Shown piece after piece: positions 55,339-61,923 of a stretch of DNA of 64,000 nucleotides. Both the position numbers and the translations under genes were made by a program. Each line of letters opens with the position of its first letter. The first letter of the stretch is position 1. The stretch lies in the NCBI RefSeq assembly GCF_003614185.1, contig NZ_KZ987724.1, forward strand, positions 4,720,046 through 4,784,045, read 5' to 3'. Below the pieces are notes generated by a model. It was not told the origin of the DNA. It ran no database searches and saw only the letters and a program-made list of their open reading frames with translations. The DNA comes from Paenibacillus aceti (GTDB taxonomy: Bacteria > Bacillota > Bacilli > Paenibacillales > Paenibacillaceae).

Positions 55339-55890
55339 GTGAACCTTTACGACAAGACATTCACTCACCCGGACGGCTCTGCATATACGAAAATCGACCG
55401 GGTTTGTGACCAGGCTCAGACCTTGCCTCTCCCGCCTCATCGCGGCTATTGTCTGGTCGATTCCTGGTTTACCTGTCCCCGCGTCATGGATGCGTATGCG
55501 CGGCGGCAGGCTATCACGTCATCGGTGCACTGAAACCAATCGGATTCTCTACCCCCAGGCATCCGGGTCTCCATTCAAGACTACGCGCAGCATATCCGCA
55601 AAGTAGACGTTCGCCTCGTCACCGTGAGCGGTTCGTCGTACTGGATGTATCGCTACGAAGGGGCATTGAATGGAATCGACAACGCCGTGGTTTTACTTTG
55701 CTGGCCGAAGCAGGCTTTCGGAGAGCCGAAGGCGTTGCGCGATTTTTGTTGTACAGATATCACACTGGAAACGGATACCATTGCAGCATTCTACGCCAAA
55801 CGCTGGCCCATCGAGATTTTCTTTCGGCAATCCCAAAATAATTTGGGCTTTGACACGTATCAGGTTCCACAAACCGTGTACTCTACCTAG
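55339..55890 (+). pseudogene. Degenerate transposase fragment (IS4-like DDE type)
   Basis: Three successive frames encode pieces of one transposase: DGSAYTKIDRVCDQ...GYCLVDSWFTCPRVMDAYARR (second catalytic Asp region), then GYHVIGAL, then IRVSIQDYAQHIRKVDV and VSGSSYWMYRYEGALNG...FYAKRWPIEIFFRQSQNNLG (Glu region, the YxxRWxxExxF-like signature). The N-terminal DDE part is absent and the C-terminus is cut at 55890, so it is inactive. I could not find terminal inverted repeats. It marks the border of an AT-rich accessory patch. Confidence 0.8.
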
Positions 55891-56420
55891 TTATAATAAA
55901 TTGTTCTATCCATTGAATGTCTATTAATTCCAAACATATTAATTGCTTTGAGATTGTCATTATATATCATAAGATTATAATCCAAGTTATTACGTAACAA
56001 CTCAATCTCTTCATCTGATAATTCATTGTCCATAATCAGTGGTATTTCTATAGCGTACTCTCTTTTCCCATTAGGCTCGATAGGTTGAAGTTCAAAATAA
56101 TCGGATTCTTCAACTTTAAGAATATTTGAGACTTCTTTTGGAAAAAGTAATCTGTAATATATTTTTGGTTTTGTGATTAATAATTTTTGATAAAATTTCT
56201 CGTGAAATGTAAATGTCCATGTATATACTAGTTTATTATTTCCATACTTTATATCAAATGAACTTACACTGAAGTTGGCAGGCACAAACCAAAGATTATT
56301 CTCAGTTCCAGACGCTTCATCCAATTGACGATTGATATTTTCAAACGTCATATTTTGATTATTGCTACAACCAGCAAGAAACAAACAGAGAACTATAACA
56401 AATAATCGTAATTTAGGCAT
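55887..56420 (-). CDS. Lipoprotein of unknown function
   Basis: The 177-residue protein has a lipoprotein signal peptide (LRLFVIVLCLFLAGC, Cys near residue 18). The body is AT-rich in codon use and resembles nothing I know; it includes segments YTWTFTFHEKFYQKLLITKP and ELSDEEIELLRNNLDYNLM. It converges with and slightly overlaps the transposase remnant. Base composition is clearly lower in G+C than the flanking metabolic operons, which suggests transfer. The ribosome binding site is weak. Confidence 0.7.
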   Translation of the reverse strand: MPKLRLFVIVLCLFLAGCSNNQNMTFENINRQLDEASGTENNLWFVPANFSVSSFDIKYGNNKLVYTWTFTFHEKFYQKLLITKPKIYYRLLFPKEVSNILKVEESDYFELQPIEPNGKREYAIEIPLIMDNELSDEEIELLRNNLDYNLMIYNDNLKAINMFGINRHSMDRTIYYN

Positions 56421-56782
56421 GTATAATCACATCCGCTAATATAAACTATTATTACGTAAAATTGAGTGAAGAGCATAACACCTTGTACATACTCCAAGAT
56501 TGCAAAATTGTAATATATTTCAATATAAATAATAATATAGAATATTTGGTTGAGTCAATAATAATTAGAGAATGGTGCTAAGGTCTTGGTGATGAACCAT
56601 TCAGCATGTGCCTGATGAAACCAATACCCTAGTAAATTACTCAGTTCATGGCTACCTGTATTCACTAGAGCCCAATTGATCAATTAATGAAAAAATGGTA
56701 TAATTTATATAAGCGTTACCGCTGATTAATGTATCTGTACAGGATATATTAATTATTTATTCTTAATATTTTGGGTGAAAAC
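56421..56782. other. AT-rich intergenic stretch
   Basis: I see no gene, repeat array or RNA here. It separates the divergent lipoprotein and tandem-repeat genes. Confidence 0.5.
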
Positions 56783-57154
56783 ATGGATACTGAAAAGTCG
56801 AAGTACATCACTATACTTCGTCCTCTCGATTACATTATGGATGTTAAAGAAGCAGCCAAACTTTGGAATAATAGTCCATCGTATGTCAAAGACCTATGTA
56901 GACTAAAACTTAAAAAAAAGGGGATGGCAATTAAAAAAGGAAATACCTGGATCATTAATAAAAGTAATGTTACTGACTCAAATAATCCTCTACTTTACAT
57001 TTTAGATGCGGAAGAAGCAGCAGTACGTTGGAATTATAGCCCATCCTACGTAAAGGATCTGTGTAGAGAGAGTCTTGAGGAAAAAGGATATGCAATCAAA
57101 AAAGGAAAGACATGGATATTGGATGCTAACCAACCAAATCCTAAATTACTTTAA
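56783..57154 (+). CDS. Small protein of two tandem helix-turn-helix-like modules
   Basis: The 123-residue protein consists of two copies of about 45 residues that share the pattern (D)xxEAAxxWNxSPSYVKDLCR, xLxxKGxAIKKGxTWI (about residues 20-60 and 70-110). The pattern looks like an excisionase/MerR-type winged helix (an N-terminal AAxxWxxSxxYV helix pair and a basic wing). DNA binding is inferred, not shown. The ATG at 56783 lies five bases after GGGTG. Its AT-rich composition matches the neighbouring lipoprotein gene, not the aldo/keto reductase that follows 37 bases later. Confidence 0.7.
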   Translation: MDTEKSKYITILRPLDYIMDVKEAAKLWNNSPSYVKDLCRLKLKKKGMAIKKGNTWIINKSNVTDSNNPLLYILDAEEAAVRWNYSPSYVKDLCRESLEEKGYAIKKGKTWILDANQPNPKLL

Positions 57155-58097: not shown

Positions 58098-58235
58098 TCT
58101 AAACGAAACTACATATCGCTATTTTCACAAAAAAAGCTGTAAAAAATTTTAACGAAACACCATATTGTTATTTTGTGGAAATCCGGGTTTTTGACCTCCA
58201 ATGGGCTCCAATAGCGATACCCCGTTCGTTAGAGT
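58098..58235. repeat. Family B intergenic repeat array, three units
   Basis: Units are ctaaacgaaactacatatcg followed by ctatttt (58100-58126), taacgaaacaccatattgtt (58150-58169) and the reverse unit aatagcgataccccgttcgt followed by tagag (58210-58234). This lies downstream of the aldo/keto reductase and may serve as a terminator-like element. Confidence 0.65.
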
Positions 58236-58315
58236 GAACAAATGGATGTTCCGACATAGCCATCCTAATTTATCAAGTATTTGGCATAAAATTACGGGAA
58301 ACGTGATATTTCTTA

Positions 58316-58344
58316 TTGACCATTGTCAAAATTAGCCTTAATAT
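58316..58344 (+). promoter_or_regulatory. Promoter of the XRE-TPR regulator with an overlapping palindrome
   Basis: TTGACC (58316-58321) and TAATAT (58339-58344) are 17 bases apart. The -35 is embedded in the perfect inverted repeat TTGAC-catt-GTCAA (58316-58329), a candidate autoregulatory operator. Confidence 0.5.
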
Positions 58345-58417
58345 TAAATTATAGATTTTTTTCAATATTATGGATTGTCTGGATTGGCTATTACTTTCAT
58401 AGGGGGGTGAATCCTTT

Positions 58418-59833
58418 TTGATTTCCACCGTCACGATACGCGCAGAATTAGAAAGCTACATCAAGAAGGAGGGGATAACTCTTCATCAATTTGCTGAAAC
58501 ATCCGGAATTAATGTAGGCACCCTAAGTGGCATTATTAACGGGAACAGACCGATATCGATTGGACAATTGGATCTCATTACCGAGATTATGGGCCTTCCG
58601 GAAGGCAGCTATTATGAAATGTATGTGGATGAGAGTTTTGCTTCATCAGCCCCACATTGGCGTAGGTTACGTCCCTTTCTGCTTCGCTGCGCGGAGCTTC
58701 GGAGACATGATTGTATTCAAAAGGTACTTGTTCTCCTGATTGAAGATATCAAACAGGTGGCAGGTATTTTTGAAACGGCGGAAATCATGTTTGAACAAGG
58801 ACTGAAAGAGGCAGCTATTCTTCTGTATGAATGTGTGGTCGAAAGTGAAAGATCAAGTCATTGTGAACGTTTAGCTATCAGTTATTTCAGATTGTTTCAA
58901 ATCTATCAAAAGGATAACCATAAGAACTTCACTGCCGCAGCTCAATTTATTCCATATCGCCACAGACTGCCTGAACATCTCGTACTCGACGGGTTAGTCA
59001 TGTTGGCTGAATTATACTACGTGAATAAAGATTGGGATGAAGTTGAGAAATATACGGATGAATTATGCAACTTGACAGAGATTCTGTATCGTAAACGTTG
59101 TTGGGAGACTCCTGATTTTAGGCCCTCTCGATCATTGGTCTATTACTACGGTATAGGTTATCTTTATAAGGGTGCTTGTTATGAATTCCGAAGGATGTTC
59201 AGTGAATCCCGGAAATGGATCGCTAAATATGCCGACTTAAGCTGGTTTGAGAGTTTGGATCAGAATATGTTAGTGGAAGTTGAGAGATACAAGATGTTTG
59301 CTCGTGCCAATTTGCTCTCCATAGATGTCAAGGAGGGGAGAGTGTCGAGAATCCCCGAGTATATTGAGTTTCTGAAGGAGAACCCAAGCGAAGTGCTGGA
59401 AGGCTTGATTACTTTGCTTGAATCGGCAAATCGGCATAAGTTTTTTGTGGACGAGCATCTTAGTTTATTTTCAGATGAGATTAAATATTATCTCAGTATT
59501 AGTAAGCAAATACCGGATGACCATAACAATCAGGACTTTGTTTACAAAGAACAAGTTCATACATTCCGCTGTTCCTTATTTTTTCAGAAATATGCAATCT
59601 ATTGTTTCAGGAAGAAGATGCTGGCAGAGGGGATTAAGAATACCTTACTCAGCCTAAAGTTTTCGATCCGAATCAACAGTAAGAGCATGATGGCGAACAG
59701 CATGATTTTATATGAGTTCTACAGGGACTATAGCACCACGGAGCAACAAACAACTTATATCAAATTATGTGAGGAGGCGTGGGACAATGAAGAAGAGTTT
59801 AGTATGGATGACTATGCAAATTCTATCTGTTAG
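58418..59833 (+). CDS. XRE-TPR (RRNPP-type) peptide-responsive regulator, AimR-like/AloR-like
   Basis: The 471-residue cytoplasmic protein has an XRE helix-turn-helix (about 8-62: ITLHQFAETSGINVGTLSGI, INGNRPISIGQLDLITEIMG). The remaining 400 residues are helical and TPR-like (LKEAAILLYECVVESE, FRMMFSESRKWIAKYADL-type helices, LAEGIKNTLLSLKFSIR). This is the layout of the RRNPP family, whose TPR domain binds a re-imported signalling peptide. A 32-codon exported-peptide gene overlaps its 3' end. The start is TTG, eight bases after AGGGGGGTG. In P. polymyxa, related AimR-like Alo regulators are each paired with such a peptide gene. The actual target genes are unknown. Confidence 0.82.
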   Translation: MISTVTIRAELESYIKKEGITLHQFAETSGINVGTLSGIINGNRPISIGQLDLITEIMGLPEGSYYEMYVDESFASSAPHWRRLRPFLLRCAELRRHDCIQKVLVLLIEDIKQVAGIFETAEIMFEQGLKEAAILLYECVVESERSSHCERLAISYFRLFQIYQKDNHKNFTAAAQFIPYRHRLPEHLVLDGLVMLAELYYVNKDWDEVEKYTDELCNLTEILYRKRCWETPDFRPSRSLVYYYGIGYLYKGACYEFRRMFSESRKWIAKYADLSWFESLDQNMLVEVERYKMFARANLLSIDVKEGRVSRIPEYIEFLKENPSEVLEGLITLLESANRHKFFVDEHLSLFSDEIKYYLSISKQIPDDHNNQDFVYKEQVHTFRCSLFFQKYAIYCFRKKMLAEGIKNTLLSLKFSIRINSKSMMANSMILYEFYRDYSTTEQQTTYIKLCEEAWDNEEEFSMDDYANSIC

Positions 59834-59885
59834 CGTTGTTATTGGAGGAGTAATCACAGCATTTACACATGGCGCTGGTTATTAA
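59787..59885 (+). CDS. Pro-peptide of a quorum-sensing pair, overlapping the regulator gene
   Basis: A 32-codon ORF starts at ATG 59787 with GGAGG nine bases upstream, inside the last 47 bases of the regulator gene in another frame. It begins MKKSLVW, has a hydrophobic core of about 15 residues (ILSVSVVIGGVITA) and ends FTHGAGY. This is the form of exported signalling pro-peptides (PapR, NprX, Phr and especially AloP, whose active part in P. polymyxa Alo13 is SHGRGG as I recall). The mature signal would be the last five to eight residues. A strong terminator follows at once, so the pair is a closed unit. Expression is not proven by the sequence. Confidence 0.82.
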   Translation: MKKSLVWMTMQILSVSVVIGGVITAFTHGAGY

Positions 59886-59905
59886 GATTAATTTGAGATT
59901 GGACG

Positions 59906-59942
59906 AAGAATCAACTCTATCTTGAGTTGATTCTTTATTTTT
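59906..59942 (+). terminator. Terminator of the regulator-peptide pair
   Basis: AAGAATCAACTC-tatctt-GAGTTGATTCTT is a perfect 12-pair stem followed by a T-rich stretch, 20 bases after the peptide stop. Confidence 0.92.
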
Positions 59943-60031
59943 ACCAAATTTGGGATTTTTTATTATATGCACAAACATCCAATATGCATTATTTAGCAAC
60001 AGACCCTAAAATATAACATAGGGTGATTGAC

Positions 60032-60217
60032 GTGATTAGAAGAGAGACGATAAGAACTATTATTGAGCAGGAACGAGAGGAATTAAACCGACTAGCGGCA
60101 CAATACGGTTTATTGGACAGGCGTGTGCTTGAACAATCTGTAGAGCTCGATGAATTGATAAATAAATATAATAAAGTCAGGTATTATGACTCTCAGAAGA
60201 AGAAGCCGATTGCTTAG
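60032..60217 (+). CDS. Spo0E-family aspartyl-phosphate phosphatase
   Basis: The 61-residue helical-hairpin protein carries the Spo0E signature SxELDxLIxxY (LEQSVELDELINKYNK near residues 33-48). Family members dephosphorylate Spo0A~P and delay sporulation. I choose GTG 60032, six bases after AGGGTG, over GTG 60023. The gene lies directly downstream of the peptide quorum-sensing pair but behind its terminator. Its own 3' end overlaps a terminator stem. Confidence 0.85.
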   Translation: MIRRETIRTIIEQEREELNRLAAQYGLLDRRVLEQSVELDELINKYNKVRYYDSQKKKPIA

Positions 60218-60251: not shown

Positions 60252-60445
60252 ATTCTAACGAAACTGGGCATCGCAATTTGCACGAAAAAGGGCTGTTCCC
60301 AATCCTAACGAAACTGGGGATCGCTATTGAGGCCAATAAGTAACTAAAAGGCTGATTTTCGCCCAAATAACGATATGGAGTTTCGTTAGAGTTAAATTAA
60401 CGTCGTTTTCCCTAAAATAACGATACCCAGTGTCGTTAGAGTTAA
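60252..60445. repeat. Family B intergenic repeat array, four units
   Basis: Two forward units (ctaacgaaactgggcatcgc at 60254-60273, ctaacgaaactggggatcgc at 60304-60323) are followed by two reverse units (aaataacgatatggagtttc at 60365-60384, running to gttagag; aaataacgatacccagtgtc at 60415-60434, running to gttagag). The length of about 190 bases and four-unit order match the family A and C arrays in layout, though not in sequence. Confidence 0.75.
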
Positions 60446-60860
60446 AGCACCTTGAGGAACTCGATTAACCTTCAACGACCTTCAACAAACGGAACGTCAT
60501 ACTACACAAATGTAGCCAGTGTAACGCAACCAACACAACCAACGCAACTCAACCAGCAAACACAACCAGCGCCACACAACACAACCAACCAGCCCCAAGC
60601 TCCCCTCCCTACTACTCCAACTCCTCAAACTACTCTCCAACTAATCCTAGACAACTCTCGAACTCCTCCCCCAACACGTACCAACTCTCCCCAATTTGCT
60701 TCAACACGCATCAATTCCCTGAGACACCGCAGATAACCCATATTTCCCTAATCGTCCTTATGTGTAAAAATTACATATTTTTATTTAGCAAGAAGTAAAA
60801 TCAACCAATTGACATCCCAACCTTTTAATTTAAGGAAAACCGCGTCGTTTCAACAAAAAT
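60446..60860. other. Non-coding G-poor, C/A-rich tract
   Basis: From about 60510 to 60735 the plus strand is nearly free of G (for example caaccaacacaaccaacgca). An ORF of 94 codons exists but has no ribosome binding site and reads as low-complexity Pro/Thr/Gln, so I do not call it a gene. The remainder to 60860 shows nothing. Confidence 0.5.
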
Positions 60861-61032: not shown

Positions 61033-61923
61033 GTGGTAACCATTCGAAAGATAATCATCGACACAGATATTGGCGACGATATCGATGATGCCCTGGCGAT
61101 TGCGCTTGCCTTGAATTCACCCGAGCTTGACTTGGTTGGCTTAACGACGGTATATCGCAATACGCCGATTCGTACTAAGCTGGCGCTTCAACTGCTGAAG
61201 GCTTACGGAAGATTGGATATTCCGGTAGCCACGGGGATCGGTAAGCCGCTATTTGCGGAGACGAATATTGACGATATTCCATGTCAATGGTCCGATGAGT
61301 ATCATGATATTGGACTCAATAGCGATCAGCATGCAATCGATTTCCTAATCGAGCAAGTACGACTTGATCCGGAAATTACGATTGTTGCGATCGGCCCGCT
61401 AACGAATATTGCCTGCGCAGTTATGAAAGCACCAGAGGTTATGAAGCAGGCTAAAATCGTCATGATGGGCGGCATGTATTCAGCTTATTATCCGGAGTGG
61501 AACATCGTCTGTGATCCGGAGGCGGCGGCGATCGTGTTCAATGCCGGTCTTCGCTTAACGATGGTAGGCTTGGATGTAACGCTTAAATGCCGCTTGACTG
61601 AAGCGGATGTGGAGAAGATCAATCGGGCCAGCCAGAGCGAAGTCAGCTTCCTCTCACGTCTTCTCACCCAATGGATGGATTCATCGAAGCATCTTCCAAT
61701 CCTTCATGATCCGTTAACTGTAGCCTATGTAAGTCATCCAGAATTGCTAAAAGTGGCACCGAAGCGAATGCTTGTAGAATGCAAGGGCGAGCATACAAGA
61801 GGAATGACCGTCGAAGAGCAGGATGTATTCTTCGGTCGTCCGACAGAGACAAATATGCTTGTAGCCGTAGATGTTTTGCGAGATCAGTTTGTTGACATGT
61901 TTATGCAAAGATTGTTCAAGTGA
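61033..61923 (+). CDS. Inosine-uridine-preferring nucleoside hydrolase family protein
   Basis: The protein has about 294-297 residues. The N-terminal IIIDTDIGDDIDDALAIALAL holds the Asp cluster that binds calcium, and IVAIGPLTNIACA and the later His/Asp segment (HLPILHDPLTVAYV) complete the active site. The enzyme hydrolyses the N-glycosidic bond of ribonucleosides to base and ribose. The start is odd: AGGAGGTG is followed by GTAACCATTCGAAAG, so the GTG at 61033 overlaps the ribosome site, and the family start (M-R-K-I-I-I-D) would need the ATT at 61042. It is followed with no gap by an ABC importer. Confidence 0.9.
   Translation: MVTIRKIIIDTDIGDDIDDALAIALALNSPELDLVGLTTVYRNTPIRTKLALQLLKAYGRLDIPVATGIGKPLFAETNIDDIPCQWSDEYHDIGLNSDQHAIDFLIEQVRLDPEITIVAIGPLTNIACAVMKAPEVMKQAKIVMMGGMYSAYYPEWNIVCDPEAAAIVFNAGLRLTMVGLDVTLKCRLTEADVEKINRASQSEVSFLSRLLTQWMDSSKHLPILHDPLTVAYVSHPELLKVAPKRMLVECKGEHTRGMTVEEQDVFFGRPTETNMLVAVDVLRDQFVDMFMQRLFK

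Follow-up and report, generated by a model that had tools for sequence, protein, structure and literature searches.

Among the genes of the window, by which we mean the whole stretch of 64,000 nucleotides of Paenibacillus aceti DNA that was analysed, we found a three-gene locus that we read as a chromosomal Alo-type peptide signalling module setting the level of a Spo0E-like protein. We put the probability of this reading at about 0.82. The locus consists of a receptor gene (aloR-like), an overlapping pro-peptide gene (aloP-like) and a Spo0E-like gene, and all of its features lie on the forward strand. The gene order, its conservation, the receptor clade and the conserved promoter elements are observations taken directly from the genomes, and the Spo0E-like gene is the strongest single clue to the function of the locus. 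An earlier note on this DNA had recognized the first two genes and overlooked the third, which lies directly downstream of aloP; it was right in kind and over-read the kinship. New in this locus are the peptide sequence, a separate receptor clade and an operator prediction.

Voichek and colleagues describe the Alo systems of P. polymyxa as an HTH receptor with an adjacent pro-peptide of 32-50 amino acids, six of them with a spo0E-like gene next (PMC7425212). One of these, Alo13, has been studied in a B. subtilis reporter, where the spo0E promoter that follows is turned on by the receptor and shut off by the peptide SHGRGG (PMC7425212).

An aloR-like gene overlaps an aloP-like gene

The aloR-like gene (58418..59833) encodes a protein of 471 amino acids with an HTH at its N-terminus, an assignment based on the open reading frame, Pfam, the identity to AloR13 and the receptor tree. 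Its start codon is TTG at 58418, preceded by the ribosome-binding site GGGGGGTG at 58402..58409. TTG is the first start codon with such a site at 23 of the 24 loci of the genus clade, and L028 is ambiguous. A consensus scan places a predicted promoter, TTGACC-17 nt-TAATAT, at 58316..58344; a TTGAC-N16-18-TATAAT-like promoter precedes the receptor at 19/24 loci of the clade. This promoter and its orthologous counterparts contain the repeat TTGAC-N4-GTCAA. The right part of the repeat, TGTCAAA in the window and several relatives, resembles the Spo0A box (consensus TGTCGAA). Such a Spo0A-box-like element in the receptor promoter could close a feedback loop.

The product had been described as an XRE-TPR regulator, and the HTH half of that description stands: the N-terminus matches HTH_3 (Pfam, E 4.3e-6). 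The TPR half finds a sub-threshold Pfam match only (TPR_2, 0.24), and PDB profile searches with the receptor returned, below E 0.01, only HTH domains. Because of the homology to AloR, we infer that the C-terminus is a degenerate-TPR receptor domain; the same homology would make the protein a member of the RRNPP(A) family (PMC7425212).

Within the receptor, residue 259 (59192-59194) is Arg, where most AloR rows compared have Gly; Arg or Lys also occurs there in a separate clade with EHGGGY-like peptides. Receptors with HG(A/V/M)G peptides can be told from those with HG(W/Y/F) peptides at two positions only, R259/G259 and S301/C301. We considered the two positions as trackers of peptide type and rejected them as such, since each group is a branch of the same tree and position 259 is usually Gly outside them. 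The two positions are kept as a post hoc lead, with residue 259 a possible specificity residue.

The aloP-like gene (59787..59885) encodes a pro-peptide of 32 amino acids, MKKSLVWMTMQILSVSVVIGGVITAFTHGAGY, and overlaps aloR by 47 bases (59787-59833). The sequence confirms both open reading frames and the overlap as they had been reported, together with a proper ribosome-binding site for the small frame, AGGAGG at 59772..59777, 9 nt before the ATG. The product has a hydrophobic core by hydropathy, and in its 32 residues and its overlap with the receptor gene it resembles the pro-peptides of the Alo systems, which have 32-50 residues, a hydrophobic N-terminal helix and a gene next to or overlapping that of the receptor (PMC7425212). 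It ends in FTHGAGY. By analogy with SHGRGG of AloP13 (PMC7425212), the C-terminal hexapeptide THGAGY (59865..59882) is the predicted mature signal. The spacer between hydrophobic core and HG, measured by a fixed rule, is 0 in the window; in the rest of the window clade spacers run from -4 to 11 and pro-peptide lengths from 30 to 36 amino acids. The main texts of the literature searched, as distinct from the supplementary tables that hold known peptides, gave no match to THGAGY or FTHGAGY, and the window receptor clade may be listed in the supplementary tables of PMC7425212.

The module recurs across the genus

AloR-like proteins are present in all 41 genomes of the genus (E <= 1e-20), and the window receptor clade (over 550 bits) is represented in 24 of them. 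Loci whose receptor ends in the same 120 residues as an earlier locus were removed before loci were counted. A small ORF, defined by a start at the same offset, an early K or R, a hydrophobic core and some ribosome-binding match, stands at the identical offset at 22 of the 24 orthologous loci, and every one of the 22 has HG followed by 1 to 8 residues. This bears out the central claim of the earlier note, an Alo-type receptor/pro-peptide pair on a bacterial chromosome. The check that it had proposed, a small ORF with (S/T)HGxG beside homologous receptors, came out in part: HG is there in 22/22, but the strict pattern in only 7 of the 22 intact peptides. HGxG is found in 14/22, and HG alone is invariant. 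At two loci aloP has decayed (the start is lost in L027, and L028 has a stop at codon 4), with receptor and spo0E kept.

Selection on the pro-peptide can be gauged past the receptor stop codon, where synonymous change outweighs nonsynonymous per site: aloP has 73 synonymous differences at 293 sites against 105 nonsynonymous at 856, a dN/dS of ~0.49 over 22 pairs that are not independent of one another. The window copy differs from that of L006 by 6 synonymous and 2 nonsynonymous changes. Some pairs show the opposite trend, as L009-L011 with 2 synonymous and 9 nonsynonymous.

A spo0E-like gene lies downstream at all 23 assessable loci (L019 ends too soon), identified by motif and tblastn; the Pfam PF09388 evidence covers the window copy only. 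At L041, L042 and L048 the peptide is present and no spo0E was found within 1.2 kb. An aldo/keto reductase gene lies upstream at 15 of the 24 loci (flank searched ~1.5 kb), which argues that the window locus was probably inherited vertically. The eight named relatives, seven Paenibacillus and one Paenibacillaceae metagenome bin, fit the range of the Alo systems (PMC7425212).

In a maximum-likelihood tree of 73 receptors, from which L026, L035-L039 and receptors under 400 amino acids were left out, the window receptor falls in a clade of 27 rows (support 99/99), apart from the AloR13 rows. The window genome holds a second AloR-like gene (L002, G000:C1:5549651-5551027), of 38% identity and with one TAG inside the match; it carries its own small overlapping ORF, ending in DHHGGM.

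The Spo0E-like gene has a conserved promoter region with a predicted operator

The Spo0E-like gene (60032..60217) starts with GTG, with an alternative GTG start at 60023, and encodes 61 amino acids that include QSxxLD and match Pfam PF09388 at 7.3e-14. Sequence and conservation place its ribosome-binding site, AGGGTGA, at 60020..60026. The window genome has three Spo0E-like genes, this copy included, and one Spo0A gene.

Between aloP and spo0E lies a terminator-like hairpin (59905..59936) with a 13-pair stem, a 6-nt loop and a T-rich tail, in agreement with the terminator already noticed after the small ORF. Of 25 loci, 20 have such a hairpin between aloP and spo0E. In a control with 250 base shuffles, two scored as high as the real sequences, but 50 of the shuffles came from the five hairpin-less loci and could not count. 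The hairpin makes spo0E probably a separate unit with its own promoter. The region 3' of it is strongly conserved over the 24 loci at which spo0E is present, namely L040 of P. vini and 23 loci of the genus (all but L019, whose sequence stops short). There it holds a -10-like TAATAT/TAAAAT and an inverted repeat; a good -35 was not found in this conserved region at the 24 loci. In the window the predicted -10-like element is TAAAAT at 60007..60012, conserved as TAATAT/TAAAAT/TATGAT.

The inverted repeat is the element that we predict to be the AloR operator, TGC-N25-GCA before spo0E. Its window copy, ATGC-N25-GCAA, spans 59967..59999, with arms at 59967-59970 and 59996-59999. Removal of promoters at least 85% alike reduced the set to 13; in the unanchored alignment of these, the best inverted repeat among 5,775 placements was (A/T)TGC-N25-GCAA, with 0.88 of arm positions paired. 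The core TGC-N25-GCA stands upstream of spo0E at 24/24 loci examined (23 from the genus and that of P. vini), and none of 500 column shuffles contained a repeat as good, their mean maximum being 0.74. The count was anchored on GCAAC, so that the right arm was fixed and the left arm free; the unanchored alignment led to the same best repeat. Elsewhere in the window WTGC-N25-GCAA occurs once, inside a gene at 61876, and the spo0E promoter pattern has one further exact match elsewhere in the window genome. No repeat of this type was found within 300 bases upstream of aloR. It is likewise absent from the gap after the peptide at L041, L042 and L048, the loci without a spo0E found, and the recognition helix, conserved in those clade members with spo0E that were sampled, differs in L041 and L048, the two compared.

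Five other small AloR groups do not favour the 25-bp spacing over the rest. In the AloR13-like group (5 sequences) its score is 0.95, and other spacings do as well or better; in L030/L031 it scores 1.00, tied for best, and in the remaining three it does not come first. Alternatively, the left half of the repeat could be a weak -35 element.

Genomic neighbourhood

Six neighbouring proteins were scanned. Three belong to metabolism or transport, one is a DeoR-type regulator, one has no assignment and one is a small HTH protein. The earlier statement that no phage genes surround the locus agrees with the metabolic, transport and regulator neighbours, and needs qualifying for the last of the six. 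This protein (56771-57154), ~1.3 kb upstream, has HTH_59/HTH_17 matches and an excisionase-like PHROG match, and by eye consists of two similar halves. It counts as a weak lead against the non-phage reading. A phage or other mobile origin was considered and rejected, given that metabolic genes adjoin the locus and that the same aldo/keto reductase recurs upstream of its orthologues. Window positions 55339-55927 hold overlapping frames that resemble, by eye, the remains of an insertion-sequence transposase.

Relatives of the receptor do occur in mobile DNA. An IMG/VR contig (L088) carries a 64% relative at its end, past genes that look by eye like phage-lysis genes, and we take this end of the contig for host DNA at the border of a prophage. 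Distant relatives were found in Brevibacillus phages (2 of 50,697 records) and in plasmids (35 of 72,556 records). In the Brevibacillus phage SecTim467 (L094, 2161-3984), a gene annotated Spo0E lies directly upstream of an AloR-like gene of 31.9% identity, whose end is overlapped by a small ORF without an obvious signal peptide.

An interspersed repeat, AACGAAAC-N5-ATCGNTATT, lies on either side of the module, at 58102-58240 and 60254-60446 of the window, arranged as direct pairs ~50 bp apart that face inverted copies. Exact matches number 324 in the window genome (reversed control 0), 396 in G032 and 198 in G011, and the repeat is absent from the other 13 of the 16 genomes searched. Rfam gave no match in the 64-kb window. 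This is possibly a lineage-specific family of hairpin-forming repeats.

Proposed mechanism and alternatives

The module can be pictured as follows. The receptor gene would be transcribed from its own promoter, as the conservation of that promoter suggests. The sequence and the AloP13 precedent suggest that the hydrophobic N-terminus would direct the export of the 32-residue pro-peptide and that trimming would leave a short piece of its C-terminal end; THGAGY, or something close to it, is the likeliest product. In the absence of peptide, a receptor dimer would occupy TGC-N25-GCA, immediately 5' of the -10 box, and activate spo0E, a direction of control suggested by Alo13 (PMC7425212) and by the conserved operator. 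In B. subtilis, Spo0E lowers phosphorylated Spo0A (PMC7425212); its counterpart here would do the same and so delay sporulation. Accumulated peptide would be taken back into the cells and bind the receptor, whereupon spo0E expression would fall and Spo0A be freed, with the shut-off modelled on Alo13 (PMC7425212). A dense population would in the end have less Spo0E and be freer to sporulate.

The first point at which this picture might fail is its output. The receptor and signal peptide could be of Alo type and spo0E a conserved neighbour outside receptor control, with other genes or aloR itself regulated instead. The hairpin that separates aloP from spo0E would suit such an arrangement, as would L041, L042 and L048, where receptor and peptide persist and no adjacent spo0E was found. 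We nevertheless think it unlikely: spo0E is there at every assessable locus with a conserved inverted repeat upstream, Alo13 is a direct precedent (PMC7425212), and no such repeat was found in the 300 bases upstream of aloR.

The other two alternatives concern the small ORF. That aloP encodes a small membrane protein or a type I toxin-like peptide, translated with the receptor and carrying no signal, might be supposed from its short, strongly hydrophobic product, whose core reaches the C-terminal residues, and from the longer tails of some orthologues (THGMGINSNC, FHGWGGR). We judge this very improbable, because the hydrophobic part varies whereas HG near the C-terminus is kept in all 22 intact peptides, pro-peptides of this type also accompany paralogous receptors, in several cases with long spacers, and fragments of 9 of the 14 predicted AloP peptides of P. 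polymyxa were detected in the medium (PMC7425212). It is harder still to believe that the peptide is on its way to being lost, with the receptor an orphan listening to the peptides of other strains. Decay of this kind is seen in L027 and L028, and no intact HG peptide was found in eight P. polymyxa-group relatives examined; in the window and its closest relatives, however, the start, ribosome-binding site and C-terminus are intact, and the differences from L006 are mostly synonymous. An Alo-type module with spo0E as its output stays our preferred reading.

In the literature searched, one system of this family, Alo13, has been functionally tested; the present locus contributes a further peptide and a further ortholog group. 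It yields testable predictions, namely the hexapeptide, the output gene and the operator. Since the same module is found in 24 of 41 genomes with peptides that differ by species, it also offers a natural series for following peptide-receptor co-change.

Comparison with known systems

Alo13 is the natural reference. As AloR13 we took the receptor that precedes AloP13 in the P. polymyxa-like genome G103 (100% peptide match), which has 17 AloR-like proteins (E <= 1e-10); the AloP13 pro-peptide itself matches 3 of 395 family genomes at E <= 0.01. The window locus and Alo13 (AloR13-AloP13-spo0E) share the order of receptor, overlapping pro-peptide, terminator-like hairpin (seen by eye at L043) and Spo0E-like gene, and both have a receptor of the same HTH family and a peptide with HG at the C-terminus. 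They differ in the pro-peptide, which has 32 amino acids and spacer 0 in the window and 44 amino acids and spacer 20 in AloP13 (L043), in the peptide (THGAGY vs SHGRGG), and in the TGC-N25-GCA repeat of the window clade, which was not found at Alo13. Compared over 470 columns, the window receptor and AloR13 share 36.6% identity, above the rule of 30% identity and 80% coverage that was applied to known receptor clusters (PMC10075063). The closer kinship with Alo13 that had been drawn from the shared HG-G pattern is not supported: the two receptors fall in different clades, and paralogous pro-peptides, too, commonly carry HG close to their C-terminus, which makes the HG-G match a trait of the family. 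Orthology to Alo13 was rejected on these two grounds.

The closest receptors of the P. polymyxa group lie elsewhere, headed by L051 of G103, 48.6% identical to the window receptor. L049-L051, L071, L072 and L074-L076 join with L073 in a branch of good support (98/97). This branch and the window clade belong to one larger group, whose deeper order the tree does not settle. Apart from L073, these loci (the eight that were examined out of 15 such loci) showed no intact HG pro-peptide and no spo0E under fixed rules; the peptide thus seems to be gone from the nearest relatives in the P. polymyxa group. L073 retains one, ending in GHGIGLN. In L049 and L051 the receptor is followed by a frame that, on reading its translation, resembles a thiamine/pyridoxal kinase.

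A wider reading can also be drawn, and we offer it tentatively, as one that has somewhat less than an even chance of being right. The window clade would be a separate, vertically inherited Alo lineage in which His-Gly is fixed and its neighbours vary by species (AGY, AGN, VGH, WG, YWG, WS, MFS). Its receptor would read TGC-N25-GCA with the spacing used by AimR, so that sporulation and lysogeny signalling would share a DNA-binding geometry and a layout, and the P. polymyxa branch would have lost the signal and kept an orphan receptor.

The comparison with arbitrium bears on the second part of that reading. The site that AimR of phage SPbeta recognizes lies downstream of aimP, is 31 bp long and contains an inverted repeat of a trinucleotide (PMC6536502); in SPBc2 this site reads ACT-N25-AGT and lies ~20 nt past a stem-loop. 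Within 350 bases after aimP, the exact ACT-N25-AGT is present in two of five phage records (SPBc2 and Goe14) and was not found in phi3T, BUCT082 or SPbetaL3, which makes the wider reading somewhat less likely. In a published tree based on structures, AloR and AimR belong to the same clan (PMC12700828). Similarity between them at the level of sequence was looked for and discarded, with an hhalign probability of 0.1% between the receptor profiles and a score within that of shuffles. If confirmed, the operator would support the common ancestor proposed for AimR and AloR (PMC12700828), as DNA evidence independent of the comparison of protein structures. The AimR-AimP-aimX systems of Bacillus SPbeta-type phages and the window locus have in common a receptor, a peptide gene, a stem-loop and a long-spaced inverted repeat, and ACT-N25-AGT of SPBc2 matches the predicted TGC-N25-GCA in spacing and layout. 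They part in setting and in target: the window locus is chromosomal, with spo0E in the place that aimX takes in the phages.
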